Source of the DNA: Fidelibacterota bacterium
GTDB lineage: Bacteria; Fidelibacterota; Marinisomatia; SCGC-AAA003-L08; TS1B11
DNA: 45,017 bases
Reading direction: 5' to 3'
Assembly: GCA_020354025.1 (NCBI GenBank)
Contig: CP070638.1
Coordinates: 3,025,993-3,071,009 of the forward strand
The number at the start of each line of letters is the position of its first letter. Within the stretch, counting starts at the first letter, position 1. The notes beneath the pieces are model-generated. The model had not been told where the DNA came from. It saw nothing but the letters and a program-made list of their open reading frames with translations, and ran no database searches. Made by a program: the position numbers and the translations under genes. This document shows, in pieces, positions 9,633 to 33,083 of the stretch.

Positions 9633-9650
9633 CTCTCAGATCACTGAGAG
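9633..9650 (-). other. perfect hairpin with the pgsA stop codon in its loop
   Basis: Arms CTCTCAG (9633-9639) and CTGAGAG (9644-9650) are perfectly complementary around a 4-base loop. On the minus-strand RNA the loop is UGAU, so the UGA stop of pgsA is wholly inside it. There is no U tract, so it is not a standard terminator. It sits between two genes that are in the same frame and act in consecutive steps of one pathway. Possible roles are slowing of ribosomes, coupling or recoding, all inferred. Confidence 0.5.
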
Positions 9651-10231
9651 TTGGACTTGATCAAAGCCCGGATGGCGGAACGATTCACAAAAAAATAGTC
9701 AAAGCCCGTATACAGCGTAAATAGAACGGTTATCAGCATCAATATTAGGATTAGATACATACCGTCAATCAGGTCAGTGATCAAGTAGACTTGATACGAT
9801 TTAAGACTCAGATAGCATAAAATGACGATCACGCAAGCCACCTGAATCCCCGTCTTGGCCTTGGCAACGCTACTGGTGACCATGGGCATTCCCTGTTTTT
9901 CCAGCAGATAACGTATAGCCGTTATCAGCACGTCCCTCAGGATAATTAGAATCACCATCCATAAAAAGATCAAGTCCATGGTAACAAAACTGACAAACGC
10001 CGACAAGATCAGAATCTTGTCAGCGGCCGGATCCAGCATTTTTCCAAAGCTAGATTCCACCTTCAGCCGCCGCGCCAGGTAGCCATCGATGATATCGGTG
10101 ATCCCGGCAGTGATAAAGATCGTGAGGGCCCAGGGATAGCCATTCGCCCCGCCCCAGAAAAGGATATAGATGAACAGGGGGGTCAGGAGGATGCGAAATA
10201 CGGTCAGGATATTCGGCAGGTAGTAGATCAC
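9641..10231 (-). CDS. pgsA: CDP-diacylglycerol-glycerol-3-phosphate 3-phosphatidyltransferase
   Basis: 196 residues, a polytopic inner-membrane enzyme making phosphatidylglycerophosphate from CDP-diacylglycerol and glycerol-3-phosphate. The CDP-alcohol phosphotransferase signature is exact: D49 G50 x2 A53 R54 x8 G63 x3 D67 x3 D71. Five to six hydrophobic segments are visible. Its ATG overlaps the recR stop by 4 nt, and the frame continues past its TGA straight into pgpA. CdsA, which supplies CDP-diacylglycerol, is also in this window at 38670, so three enzymes of phosphatidylglycerol synthesis are present. Confidence 0.93.
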   Translation of the reverse strand: MIYYLPNILTVFRILLTPLFIYILFWGGANGYPWALTIFITAGITDIIDGYLARRLKVESSFGKMLDPAADKILILSAFVSFVTMDLIFLWMVILIILRDVLITAIRYLLEKQGMPMVTSSVAKAKTGIQVACVIVILCYLSLKSYQVYLITDLIDGMYLILILMLITVLFTLYTGFDYFFVNRSAIRALIKSNSQ

Positions 10232-13835: not shown

Positions 13836-14651
13836 TCAGTTAAACGTGATAAAGGTGTACGTACTGATTTTCTCTCTAGCCTCCCGGGGAATTTTCACCA
13901 CGTGCACGGGTGCCCGATAGATCCGGAAGATATTAACCACAAAAGGCGAACCACACAATCCGAGCCACCCACCTATGAAACGGTGATGCCACCGGGTATC
14001 GAAATCGTTTATGCCAAACAAGCGGTTCCAGCCATCAGCCAACAACATCCCAAGCAAGGCCGAGGCGGCATAGATTCGGGAATCCTTCTTCAGGTCGGGT
14101 ACCGGTCGTTCCCGGTACCAGATACGTGCCAGACCTTCGAGAGGCACCTCGTTCACCTTCCTCCGCCTGCCCTTCAGGGTGAAGTGATGCCCCTTAAAGC
14201 CCTGGTAGATGCCACGAGCTAGCTTTCCCGATCCATACAACAGGGTCATCCTGACTTCCAAGGGCAATTCACCGATATCGGCAACGGTTTCCTCAAACGC
14301 GCGCTGTCCGCTCAGCTCTGCCCAGACCCGGGGGTCCATTGGCCCCATAAGATCGATTGCCAGTCCCAGGTCGTAGAACTCCCGCGGGGAATACTTACGG
14401 GTGAGCCACCCTTTTTTCGTCTGAATCCTCGCCTGGATTCCACCCGTTGTTTCCTGGAACTGGGCGGAGCGGAAATCCTTCAAGTTGCCAAATATCCGGT
14501 AGTATTCCTCTTCGGGGATATCAATTGTGGCACCCACGAGCTTGCTGACCACTTGTATCTCCCCCGTGGTAGGCAGCTGCTCCTGTCCCGCCAAGGAACC
14601 GGCCAGCGTAAGAATACTAGCTGCTGTCAATAAGCTTGAGGATTTCTGCAT
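13836..14651 (-). CDS. exported or membrane-associated protein of unknown function
   Basis: About 271 residues from the ATG at 14651, which opens a plausible signal peptide (MQKSSSLLTAASILTLAGSLA, cleavage near GQEQ). A farther start at 14729 would put 26 extra residues ahead of the signal and overlap more of the selenoprotein gene. The mature part has no motif I recognise. It contains a hydrophobic stretch (IYAASALLGMLLADGWNRLFG) and a second one (FIGGWLGLCGSPFVVNIFRIY) close to the C-terminus. The start lies inside the last 35 nt of the selenoprotein gene, in a different frame, so the two are probably coupled. AGAGG lies immediately before the ATG, closer than usual. Confidence 0.6.
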   Translation of the reverse strand: MQKSSSLLTAASILTLAGSLAGQEQLPTTGEIQVVSKLVGATIDIPEEEYYRIFGNLKDFRSAQFQETTGGIQARIQTKKGWLTRKYSPREFYDLGLAIDLMGPMDPRVWAELSGQRAFEETVADIGELPLEVRMTLLYGSGKLARGIYQGFKGHHFTLKGRRRKVNEVPLEGLARIWYRERPVPDLKKDSRIYAASALLGMLLADGWNRLFGINDFDTRWHHRFIGGWLGLCGSPFVVNIFRIYRAPVHVVKIPREAREKISTYTFITFN

Positions 14652-14847
14652 CCTCTGGAAAACGTCCCAAGGATTTCTTGGAAAAACGCAGCCGACCGTC
14701 AATAGAGATCTCAAAGACGCCGTCACCACTGGGAATCAGGGTGAAGGCTGATATCCGATCAGCATGCCGCTCAAGGATTTTCTGCGCCAGACCGGCGGCC
14801 CTGGGAAGGTAGTTTCACTGGGCGCAGTATTCCAGACCGATCTTCAT
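14617..14847 (-). CDS. SelW/Rdx-type selenoprotein with in-frame UGA (CxxU)
   Basis: The frame starts at ATG 14847, with AAGGAGGA 4 nt upstream, and ends at TAG 14617-14619: 76 residues with one in-frame TGA at 14815-14817. Read through, the N-terminus is MKIGLEYCAQ-U-NYLPRAA, the thioredoxin-like Rdx motif CxxC with the second Cys replaced by selenocysteine. The rest (SAFTLIPSGDGVFEISIDG, RLRFSKKSLGRFPE) matches the SelT/SelW/SelH family over its full normal length (70-100 residues). Coding similarity continuing on both sides of the UGA argues against a pseudogene. The expected role is thiol/selenol redox chemistry in the cytoplasm. It lies 43 bp after the FecR-barrel gene. No selA, selB, selC or selD is in the window, so the organism must carry them elsewhere. 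Confidence 0.85.
14787..14804 (-). promoter_or_regulatory. candidate bacterial SECIS hairpin
   Basis: Beginning 11 nt after the UGA, the RNA has CCAG and CUGG arms around a 10-nt loop GGCCGCCGGU ending in GU, 23-24 nt past the UGA. Bacterial SECIS elements are short stem-loops in this distance range with a GU in the apical loop that bind SelB. The stem is only 4-5 bp by eye, so the exact fold is uncertain. Confidence 0.35.
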
Positions 14848-14890
14848 TACTCCTCCTTCATTATGTCATTCTGTACCACAGCCGGACCTG

Positions 14891-17218
14891 CTAGAAGTTG
14901 AAAGCGGTTTCAATGGTCATGAGACGTACAATCTCTTCCTTGCCTTCAATCATCCCGTTGCCGTCGAGGTCCCGGTAGGACTCCTGGAAGTTGTACACTA
15001 GACTGACGCCCGCACCCAGTTCATAGCCAAGGCGATAGCCCCAGGTAGTGTTGGAGCTGGGATTCGCGAAATCGAACGGCTCGGGATCGTTAGTCCGGAT
15101 GTAGAAAGCTGTAGCCTCCGAAATCTTCGGGATCATGTCCGTGTTGACCGACAGGTTGGCGATAAAGCTGTTACTCTCATCAGCCGAGGTATCTGCGGGC
15201 ATTAGCTGCTGATATCCGGCGGTGAAGGTAGCCAGGTTGAACAGGTTGGCTGAAGCACTGGCGAAGTACCCGGACAAAGCGCTGGGATTCTTTATCATGA
15301 CCTGATCCTTTGTCACCACCGAGTCAGGCGCTTGGGTTGCACCCGATGAAATAAACTGCGCCCTTTCAAAGTCATAGGTGGTGTTGAAGAATCCCGGCTG
15401 GAAGAAGGGCGAGCTGCTGCGATATTCAATGCTCAGGTTAAGGAACTTCATTATCTGTGCCCGTAATCCGGGTCCTACTATCCCAGAACCTGAAGAGGCG
15501 CTGTCAGTTCCTGAAACGGAATACAGCTGCCCGCCGTAATTCAACATGCCAACCTCGGCGTAGGCTACCATGCTCAGGGCATTGGAACTGAAGATGGGGT
15601 AGCTTAGATCGGCACTGATGCCGAAAGTTGAGCGGGAGGATGTCTTCTTGTTGAAGGGCTCGGGATCTCTCCGGATATCATCATCAAGATACAGCGTATC
15701 GGGCAGAGTATAGGCCGGGAAGCGTGGGTCGTTGGGATAAACGATATCAGTTATTCCGTCCCCATCAATGTCTATTTCGTCTTCACGATCATCGGGACGG
15801 CCATCCCCATCAGAGTCGATTGCCCACATGACACTGTCAGGAAATGCGTCAAGGAGATCAGGTACACCATCGTCGTCCTTATCCTTCAGGCCGCCGTACT
15901 GGTTCAGGTCGCCCACTACGTTAATCCCCAGGGTGAGAGGGAAGTTCTTGGATACCCGGTAAGTGCCCCGCAGGCCAACCAGACCGCCTAATTCCTTTAC
16001 ATCGGCGGTGAAGCCCTTCAGCCCGAAATTCTCGCCAACGCGGCCGCCCAGCTCGAAGCCTACCCGGCGCACCTGGGGGAACTCGGTCATATTGGAGTAA
16101 TTATTCATAAGGACCCCGAAGCCGTACTGCACCTGGGGCATGGACCCGATCTTGAAAAAGAAGGGGTCCTGGTCTGTACCGTAGCGCAGGTAGAGGATCT
16201 TGTCAAGGTAGTCAGAAGCCTCGTCCCACTCGTCCTTGCGGAAGTTCCCCTCGGCATCCATGTAACCTACCAGATCTAGTCCGATACCGATCTTCCCGAA
16301 GGAAAACTCCGGACGGAGGGCTATCTGGTAGTAGACAGTGCCATCGAGAGTAACCGAGCCCAGCCCCAGACCGAGACCCGGCCCGGCCTTCTTGGGAGCC
16401 GCCGCCTCTTCTTCGGGCGCCTCGGCAGCCGCTACCGGCTCTGCGACAGGCGCCTCCTCCTCAACGAAAAGCTCTTCGAGCTGCGCCGCCTCGACTTCAG
16501 GAACCTCTGCTGCACCTACCTCTTCCGGGACTCCTTCTTCAATTTCCCCTTCCGGCTCCCCCGGCTCGGGCTCTGGCCGTGGTACCTCCTCATCAGGATC
16601 GGTAGGCAGCTCGTCAGGACTGACAGGAACAGGGGGTGTCACTGCGCCGGTCGCCGTAGAGATGATCATGGTACCGGGGGTCAGGTTCTGGGCAATGCCG
16701 CTGATCTTGTTGAGAATTTCTACCGCACCTTCCATACCATAAGCCCGGTCAACACCTGCATCGAAGTCGTGAATCAGCCAGAAATCAGTGCCTTTCACCG
16801 ACGCCACGGACACCGGTGTTTCCACCCGGAAAGACTTGATGGGCTGGGGCATGGTGGAGCGAATAGTGCCGTATTGCAGGTCCAGGGTGCGGGTGTTCGC
16901 GCTTTCGATAAATTGGAATTGGCTGCCGGCCTTGATCTTGAGTAGCGTCTTATCATCTAAGAACATAAACGATGCAAAACCATCTCCCCCGGCACGAATG
17001 GCATCACCATTGAAGGTATTCATGGCCGGCCGCAAGCTGGTGGCAAAGTCAGCCTCCGCCTGCCGCTTCAACAGCACCTCACCTCTGGATTTTAACGCCC
17101 GTGCCAGAGGATCTTGCTGCGCAGATAAAGGCAGAGCTGCAATCAGGATCGTAATAATAATAAAGCACCCAGATAGCAGAGTACCGGAAAACGACAAACG
17201 TGAATCAGCAGGTCTCAT
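14891..17218 (-). CDS. FecR-domain outer-membrane beta-barrel protein with calcium-type repeats
   Basis: 775 residues. A signal peptide is present (ILIAALPLSAQQ, cleavage near residue 35). Residues 45-190 resemble a FecR/DUF-type ligand domain (GDAIRAGGDGFASFMFLDDKTLLKI, VETPVSVASVKGTDFWL). About 195-275 is a Pro/Glu linker (PRPEPEPGEPEGE, APEEEAAAPKK). The rest looks like alternating beta strands of a barrel ending in an aromatic residue (TIETAFNF). Inside the barrel are thrombospondin type 3-like Asp repeats (DKDDDGVPDLLDAFPDS, DSDGDGRPDD, DIDGDGITD), likely an extracellular Ca2+-binding loop. The start has AAGGGGTG upstream. The role is unknown: FecR domains sense or bind at the periplasmic side, and the linker may span the periplasm or peptidoglycan. 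Confidence 0.75.
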   Translation of the reverse strand: MRPADSRLSFSGTLLSGCFIIITILIAALPLSAQQDPLARALKSRGEVLLKRQAEADFATSLRPAMNTFNGDAIRAGGDGFASFMFLDDKTLLKIKAGSQFQFIESANTRTLDLQYGTIRSTMPQPIKSFRVETPVSVASVKGTDFWLIHDFDAGVDRAYGMEGAVEILNKISGIAQNLTPGTMIISTATGAVTPPVPVSPDELPTDPDEEVPRPEPEPGEPEGEIEEGVPEEVGAAEVPEVEAAQLEELFVEEEAPVAEPVAAAEAPEEEAAAPKKAGPGLGLGLGSVTLDGTVYYQIALRPEFSFGKIGIGLDLVGYMDAEGNFRKDEWDEASDYLDKILYLRYGTDQDPFFFKIGSMPQVQYGFGVLMNNYSNMTEFPQVRRVGFELGGRVGENFGLKGFTADVKELGGLVGLRGTYRVSKNFPLTLGINVVGDLNQYGGLKDKDDDGVPDLLDAFPDSVMWAIDSDGDGRPDDREDEIDIDGDGITDIVYPNDPRFPAYTLPDTLYLDDDIRRDPEPFNKKTSSRSTFGISADLSYPIFSSNALSMVAYAEVGMLNYGGQLYSVSGTDSASSGSGIVGPGLRAQIMKFLNLSIEYRSSSPFFQPGFFNTTYDFERAQFISSGATQAPDSVVTKDQVMIKNPSALSGYFASASANLFNLATFTAGYQQLMPADTSADESNSFIANLSVNTDMIPKISEATAFYIRTNDPEPFDFANPSSNTTWGYRLGYELGAGVSLVYNFQESYRDLDGNGMIEGKEEIVRLMTIETAFNF

Positions 17219-23012: not shown

Positions 23013-23139
23013 GGATTGAATGAAAGATTCCTACCCGCCAGCGCGTCTACCCTTCCCCGTCCTCAAAGGCGGTCCAGCTCATGATCACCTTTGGGAGTAT
23101 CGGAAAAGGATAGCTGACCAGTTGTTTAAAGTTCAATCC
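23013..23139 (-). ncRNA. candidate 6S-like RNA downstream of zapA
   Basis: The minus-strand RNA can fold into one long rod. A closing stem pairs GGATTGAA (23132-23139, overlapping the zapA stop) with TTCAATCC (23013-23020). A large asymmetric bubble follows (about 18 and 26 nt), then a 12-bp stem CTATCCTTTTCC (23102-23113) with GGGGAAGGGTAG (23047-23058) including three G-U pairs. An upper stem CAAAGG/CCTTTG (23088-23093 with 23064-23069), extended by UCC/GGA past one bulged A, carries an 18-nt loop. A rod with a central bubble is the 6S architecture that traps RNA polymerase, and position after zapA is the classic ssrS site. At about 127 nt it is shorter than most 6S RNAs. Confidence 0.45.
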
Positions 23140-23444
23140 TTGAAAGAGGACTCCAGTACCTCATCAACAAGGTTGGACAGGGCCACTGCACGACCTTCGA
23201 TCTGGTCTAATGATGAGCTGCGCTTACGCTTTTCGGTGAAGAGTTCATCGGTGATACTCATGGCCGCCAGGATGGAGATCCTGGTGGATGATTGAGGCCC
23301 ATCGAGGTTTAATTCCGTCTCACGCATGCGTTCATCCACGTAGGCGGCAACCTCGGTGATATAGTCCGGGTCAGCCACCGCCCGCACGGTGTACTCATGG
23401 CCGTAAATAGTAACCCGAACCAGGTTCTGTTCATGATCGTTCAT
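23133..23444 (-). CDS. zapA: cell division protein ZapA
   Basis: 103 residues. ZapA is a small dimeric or tetrameric protein that bundles FtsZ at the division ring. Seen here are the N-terminal strand-rich part (VRVTIYGHEYTVRA, DPDYITEVAAYVDERM) and a C-terminal coiled coil (TDELFTEKRKRSSSLDQIEGRAVAL). GGAGG lies 6 nt before the ATG. It follows pheT by 27 bp; a pheST-zapA order is common. The last codons overlap the closing stem of the candidate structured RNA. Confidence 0.9.
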   Translation of the reverse strand: MNDHEQNLVRVTIYGHEYTVRAVADPDYITEVAAYVDERMRETELNLDGPQSSTRISILAAMSITDELFTEKRKRSSSLDQIEGRAVALSNLVDEVLESSFKD

Positions 23445-31779: not shown

Positions 31780-32406
31780 TCATGAATCCTTTATGATTTC
31801 TTGTTCCACATATGACGCAATTTTGCTGGCGATTATCTCCTTCGACTGGTCACCATCCAGGACCAGCCAGTCGTCCGGAGCCTCCCGGGCCAGTTCTAAA
31901 TACCCCTGACGGACACGCATCTGGAAAGCCCTCCCGGCGCTCTCCATGCGATCGGCATAGGAACCCAATAAGCGAGTGGCGGCAACGTCAACACTCAGAT
32001 CAAGTAATACCTTGAGGTCAGGTTGGATGTTCCTGGTCGCAAATTCCTGGATAGTAATGATTTCGTTCAGCGGAAGTTCCCGCCCATAGCCCTGATATGC
32101 AATCGTGCTGTCAGCATAGCGATCACATATAACTATCTCACCCCGTTCCAATGCCGGGATGATTACCTCATGGACCGTCTGGGCCCTTGCCGTGGAGAAT
32201 AGAAGGGCTTCGGCGCGTTTACTTAAACCCCGGCTGTGATGATCGAGTAACAAGCCCCGTATCTGTTCTGAGAGTACGGTACCTCCCGGTTCCCGGACTA
32301 CGGTTATTGCCCTGTCAAGGGCTTCCAATCGCTCATTAAGCAGAGCGACCTGCGTGGATTTGCCGGAACCGTCGATGCCTTCGAAGGAAATGAATATACC
32401 AGTCAT
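31780..32406 (-). CDS. tmk: thymidylate kinase
   Basis: 208 residues from the ATG at 32406, which overlaps the rsmI stop (ATGA); an upstream in-frame start at 32439 would lengthen the overlap and add residues not typical of the family. The P-loop is FEGIDGSGKST near the N-terminus, the DR(Y/H) motif is CDRYADSTIAYQGYGR, and VREPGGT carries the Arg of the TMP site. It phosphorylates dTMP to dTDP. tmk with rsmI is a common small cluster. Confidence 0.96.
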   Translation of the reverse strand: MTGIFISFEGIDGSGKSTQVALLNERLEALDRAITVVREPGGTVLSEQIRGLLLDHHSRGLSKRAEALLFSTARAQTVHEVIIPALERGEIVICDRYADSTIAYQGYGRELPLNEIITIQEFATRNIQPDLKVLLDLSVDVAATRLLGSYADRMESAGRAFQMRVRQGYLELAREAPDDWLVLDGDQSKEIIASKIASYVEQEIIKDS

Positions 32407-33083
32407 GACAATCCCTCTTTCCCAATGACCAGAACACATTCCCCTTTAGGGGGCGTCTGGTTCACACCTGCAAGTACCTCTCCCACCGTTCCCCTCATCA
32501 CGCTTTCAAATTTCTTGGTCAGCTCCCGGCAGAAGGCCATACGGCGTTCGCCGAAGTGGATGAGAATATCTGAGAGTGTATCTGCCACTCGCATGGGAGA
32601 CTCGTAGATAATCACAGTTCCTTTAAAGGCTGCCAGAGACTGCAGCCTACCAGCACGCCCCTTTCGTCTGGGAAGAAATCCTTCAAAAAGGAACCGATCG
32701 GTAGGCAGCCCACTCATCACCAGAGCCGCCAGGAACGCACTGGCACCAGGTACGGGAACTATCGGAATTCCCCGCTCGGCCGCCTGTTTGATAACATGGT
32801 ATCCCGGATCGCTGAGGTTGGGGGTGCCGGCATTACAGACCAGCGCAATGCTGTCGCCCGCTTCCAGAAACGATAACAGCTCCTTCGCCCGGCGCTCTTC
32901 GTTATGCTCGTGATACCTGATCATACGCTTGGAGATCTCGTGATGCTTCAGGAGAATATTCGTATGGTGGACGTCTTCAGCAGCAATGAGATCAACCTGT
33001 TGCAGTATTTCCAGAGCCCGGATGGTAATGTCCTTCAGGTTGCCAATAGGGGTGGATACCACGTAGAGGGTTCCGGCAAGCAC
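32403..33083 (-). CDS. rsmI: 16S rRNA (cytidine-1402 2'-O) methyltransferase
   Basis: 226 residues. Tetrapyrrole-methylase fold: LYVVSTPIGNLKDITIRAL, DLIAAEDVHHTNILL, LVCNAGTPNLSDPGYHV, PVPGASAFLAALVMSGL and FEGFLPRRKGRAGRLQSL. RsmI uses SAM to methylate C1402 of 16S rRNA in the decoding centre. It lacks the C-terminal extension of about 50 residues found in E. coli RsmI (286 residues), as in many other phyla. The neighbouring LAT gene ends 1 bp upstream. Confidence 0.95.
   Translation of the reverse strand: MLAGTLYVVSTPIGNLKDITIRALEILQQVDLIAAEDVHHTNILLKHHEISKRMIRYHEHNEERRAKELLSFLEAGDSIALVCNAGTPNLSDPGYHVIKQAAERGIPIVPVPGASAFLAALVMSGLPTDRFLFEGFLPRRKGRAGRLQSLAAFKGTVIIYESPMRVADTLSDILIHFGERRMAFCRELTKKFESVMRGTVGEVLAGVNQTPPKGECVLVIGKEGLS

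Follow-up and report, generated by a model that had tools for sequence, protein, structure and literature searches.

The locus and its reading frame

The window analysed here, a stretch of 45,017 nucleotides, belongs to a single-contig genome of 3.4 Mb, which was searched for the selenocysteine (Sec) machinery. On its minus strand it carries a short gene of the Rdx/SelW type, here called Rdx-U, with a UGA codon inside the frame. The features that matter for its interpretation are the following.

14617..14847, minus strand: predicted selenoprotein gene of the Rdx/SelW type with 76 codons and a TAG stop; its CxxU motif is C8-A-Q-U11 (from sequence, family match and conserved UGA frame)
14815..14817, minus strand: in-frame UGA, predicted to be read as selenocysteine (opposite the second CxxC cysteine of 2fa8 and further PDB homologues; Sec machinery in the genome)
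14785..14797, minus strand: putative upper stem-loop of a bacterial SECIS, CGCC-GGUCU-GGCG, whose loop lies 21 nt past the UGA; covariation in 41 sequences
14851..14858, minus strand: Shine-Dalgarno sequence AAGGAGGA upstream of the ATG; similar purine-rich sites precede many homologues
14891..17218, minus strand: upstream gene for an outer-membrane-like protein of 775 aa with a FecR domain and a beta-barrel (Pfam FecR, E=2.4e-7)
13836..14630, minus strand: downstream gene, a conserved neighbour of unassigned function, about 264 aa if TTG 14630 is the start
23133-23444: zapA, ends in TGA
32403-33083: rsmI, ends in TGA
9641-10231: pgsA, ends in TGA

The frame runs on the minus strand from the ATG at 14847-14845 to a TAG stop at 14619-14617 and meets TGA at 14817-14815, codon 11, as the last position of CAQU. 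An earlier note on this DNA had proposed that a full-length Rdx protein is encoded only if this TGA is read through, that CAQU stands where the family has CxxC, that a Shine-Dalgarno sequence precedes the ATG and that neither half of the gene is a good ORF. All of this was borne out: the read-through product has 76 residues and matches Pfam Rdx (PF10262) with 73.7 bits and E=1.4e-20 (cut-off 22.6), codon 11 aligns with the second Cys of solved homologues, AAGGAGGA lies at 14858-14851, and the list of window ORFs under table 11 holds no same-frame ORF of at least 20 aa at the gene. The gene itself is real, and it escapes annotation easily. In Epsilonproteobacteria, annotation completely missed SelW genes (PMC4607533).

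Both marks of the Rdx family are present, namely an N-terminal CxxU and a domain above the curated cut-offs of PF10262 and of TIGR02174 (61.4 bits, cut-off 34.2). The best NCBIfam match is the SelT/SelW/SelH family (seleno)protein NF041051 (SelTWH_Campy), with 87.5 bits over residues 5-73; the curated cut-off is 88, which this score misses by half a bit, so the protein is not filed under that equivalog. The family alignment suggested in the earlier note places the Sec codon opposite Cys in 2fa8, 2oka and others, and C8-A-Q-U11 falls on CTQC of 2fa8 (E=2.2e-14). The Cys-form Rdx structures (2fa8 Atu0228, 2oka, 2p0g and others) are alike by sequence in fold family and in the aligned C-x-x-[C/U], and differ in carrying Cys where Rdx-U would carry Sec.

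Proteins of this kind are already well known: papers of 2005-2008 described SelW-like selenoproteins with a CxxU motif (PMC1088965, PMC2398784), and these rank with the most common selenoproteins known from bacteria. SelW-like CxxU proteins form the most abundant known family of the Sargasso Sea set, with 48 genes (PMC1088965), and in GOS they are among the most widespread and the largest in the table, with 427 genes (PMC2398784). What they have in common with Rdx-U is clear from the same sources: the Rdx/SelW domain, CxxU and an in-gene SECIS right past the UGA.

The UGA codon and the hairpin among relatives

Of the 100 nearest genomes, 73 hold relatives of Rdx-U, and so do 144 of the 245 genomes covered by the phylum search. 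In both sets, each listed match long enough to span the site contains a single in-frame TGA, at identities of about 30-74% over the phylum, and the matches without TGA are partial ones whose coverage leaves the site outside. The TGA occupies the identical codon in the 41 Sec homologues retrieved, a number that includes the window's own gene, while an alphaproteobacterial homologue (L014) has TGC there; the UGA position is thus a conserved Sec/Cys pair among homologues, a criterion for bacterial selenoproteins. Conservation of the UGA frame over the phylum at this range of identity excludes chance. The earlier note had named a frame closed after the UGA in close relatives as grounds for abandoning its claim; the frame stays open past the UGA in close and distant relatives alike. 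Two matches hold an additional TAG somewhere along their length. Relatives from the same order (L077-L082) carry divergent copies (about 30-38% identity) that keep the UGA and form three or four hairpin pairs.

Does the RNA past the UGA carry the signal that selenocysteine insertion would need? The bacterial SECIS model has a loop of 3-9 nt, an upper stem of 4-16 bp, a distance of 16-37 nt from the UGA, a G in the first two loop positions and a free energy of -7.5 kcal/mol or lower (PMC13188914). The hairpin pointed out in the earlier note agrees with this geometry: counted from the first UGA base, the stem joins positions 21-24 to 30-33 (14797-14794 to 14788-14785) and encloses a loop of 5 nt, giving 4 bp, a UGA-to-loop distance of 21 nt and the loop GGUCU at 14793-14789 with GU at 14792-14791. 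In most other homologues the loop is AGUUU, CGUGC or AGUAU. The energies lie near the quoted criterion of -7.5 kcal/mol (PMC13188914), with -7.8 kcal/mol for the unconstrained 45-mer, which adopts a competing fold, and -7.4, just outside it, when the 45-mer is constrained to the hairpin; the hairpin alone is weak, at -5.6 kcal/mol. While distance and loop stood as the earlier note had described them, the fold of the single sequence is not significant (MFE z=+0.93), and lone-sequence folding was rejected as proof of a SECIS.

It is the comparative data only that prove the SECIS hairpin predicted here, and the SECIS is decisive for the finding. Over 41 homologues, which share descent so that covariation counts are not independent events, 96.3% of the stem cells are paired, all four pairs show double changes, and covariation scores 0.583, compared with 0.161 after shuffling and no more than 0.145 when the stem is slid. 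When 3,240 column pairs from the site and its surroundings are ranked, three of the four stem pairs come first, second and third. The top-ranked pair joins columns 21 and 33, both third codon positions. Where codons +6 and +10 both encode Ala, their third bases pair in 30 of 30 homologues, as against a mean of 13.2 and a maximum of 23 in 20,000 permutations; these changes are synonymous and are therefore explained by RNA structure, not by selection on the protein. Evidence for a SECIS is seldom as direct as this covariation between two synonymous codon positions. Thirteen Sec homologues outside the stem definition form four pairs (11 sequences) or three (2 sequences). The Rdx-U gene differs in this from the Cys-form genes, four of five of which lack the hairpin: L014 fits it only at +9.0 kcal/mol, and three others form two pairs. 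In the Cys form of Microvirga lotononidis (L095) all four hairpin pairs fit, whether by chance or as a relic of a Sec form.

Selenocysteine machinery of the genome

The earlier note had made its reading depend on selA, selB, selC and selD elsewhere in the genome, and all four are there, which leaves the Sec reading unrefuted: selA (529.8 bits) is directly followed by selB (328.3 bits), the tRNA-Sec gene selC scores 75.4 bits and has the anticodon UCA, and selD scores 401.9 bits (L029, C1:1667777-1668703). The selD gene itself contains one in-frame TGA, in HGAG-U-ACKL, and past it lies a strong hairpin, with -25.6 kcal/mol across 43 nt. This position is the usual Sec/Cys site, and SelD is probably a selenoprotein as well. 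A gene of the peroxiredoxin family (AhpC-TSA; L073, C1:2343893-2344201, minus strand) likewise has an in-frame TGA, in FYRGGW-U-PPC, with a 7-bp hairpin of -11.3 kcal/mol past it, and is likely to encode a third selenoprotein of this genome. A search for further UGA genes among the AhpD-like (CMD) and molybdopterin (FdhA-type) families found no internal stops, and a covariance-model scan of the genome with the SECIS gave the Rdx-U gene as the only convincing hit, the next best having E=0.95.

Across 100 relatives, selA and the Rdx-U gene occur together in 66 and are both missing in 14, with 13 having selA only and 7 the gene only (Fisher p=1.8e-5); this co-occurrence is not independent evidence, because 12 of the 14 double absences come from one small-genome family. 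The 7 relatives with Rdx-U but no selA over the cut-off are mostly incomplete or fragmented assemblies.

Readings of the UGA and the conserved neighbours

What else could place a stop codon inside an Rdx frame? In one genome, a lone in-frame stop could give the appearance of a decayed Rdx pseudogene, or of a CxxC gene interrupted by a stop through faulty sequencing. The TGA, the intact frame and the covarying hairpin are, however, kept in independent genomes across the phylum, and the phylum search of 245 genomes found no full-length Cys form, so that decay or error appears extremely improbable. That the Rdx frame does run through the UGA would also suit a general reassignment of the codon, such as one to Trp or Gly, or a non-programmed read-through in place of Sec insertion. 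Yet UGA is an ordinary stop here, since TGA terminates 15 of the 35 ORFs listed for the window: zapA, rsmI and pgsA, which the earlier note had correctly named and cited as TGA-ended, and 12 more. The genome possesses a tRNA-Sec with the anticodon UCA and the full Sec machinery, and the UGA site aligns with Cys; we consider this reading scarcely credible.

With a probability of about 0.97, the product of the Rdx-U gene would be a genuine bacterial selenoprotein of the SelW-like type (Rdx family), a reading based on the frame conserved through the UGA, on the covariation in the SECIS and on the presence of all of selA, selB, selC and selD. Judging from the sequence evidence, the cell almost certainly reads the mid-gene UGA as selenocysteine. 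The stem-loop just past the UGA would recruit SelB carrying Sec-tRNA(Sec), which would insert selenocysteine at codon 11, so that the first loop of a thioredoxin-like fold would carry a CxxU redox motif. Family and motif suggest a redox role, in which Cys8 and Sec11 probably alternate between the thiol/selenol and the selenylsulfide state, reducing a presumed partner. The locus offers a clean, well-controlled example of a gene lost by standard calling, in a genome where SelD and the peroxiredoxin-like protein look like further selenoproteins.

The least expected part of the finding is the conserved order of FecR-barrel gene, Rdx-U and uncharacterised protein (13836-17218 in the window), which is kept in 29 of 30 loci. 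The FecR-barrel gene is the adjacent upstream gene, in the same orientation, in 29/30, and a homologue of the downstream protein is likewise found at 29/30; in the window the downstream gene, if it starts at TTG 14630, overlaps the end of the Rdx-U gene. A Pfam/NCBIfam search with the downstream protein gave no match. For the SelW-like proteins of the Sargasso Sea and GOS, the cited passages make no mention of such neighbours (PMC1088965, PMC2398784).

The gene order, together with the overlap, raises the possibility that the Sec-containing protein partners these neighbours, for instance in envelope-linked redox or stress signalling, and does not serve as a general thiol reductase. Such a proposal bears on the role only and is compatible with selenocysteine insertion and with the explanation preferred here. 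Gene order alone, however, does not demonstrate function, the Rdx protein starts directly with its domain and leaves no room for a signal peptide, and distant phylum members and order-mates (L077-L086) carry Rdx-U without the FecR-barrel or downstream neighbours within about 3 kb. A partnership of this kind is unlikely, and we are equally doubtful that this lineage-specific cluster with the FecR-barrel and an undescribed downstream protein would give Rdx-U an envelope-linked redox or signalling role new for SelW-like proteins. The conserved neighbours nevertheless provide a testable lead on the role of SelW-like proteins in bacteria.

At one further locus (L087), nothing but a partial match to the FecR protein lies near Rdx-U. 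The gene also occurs on plasmids: in Cytobacillus spongiae (L093) it adjoins selD and has no listed gene, in Thermomicrobium roseum (L094) the annotation begins only past the UGA, and in both the four-pair hairpin forms.
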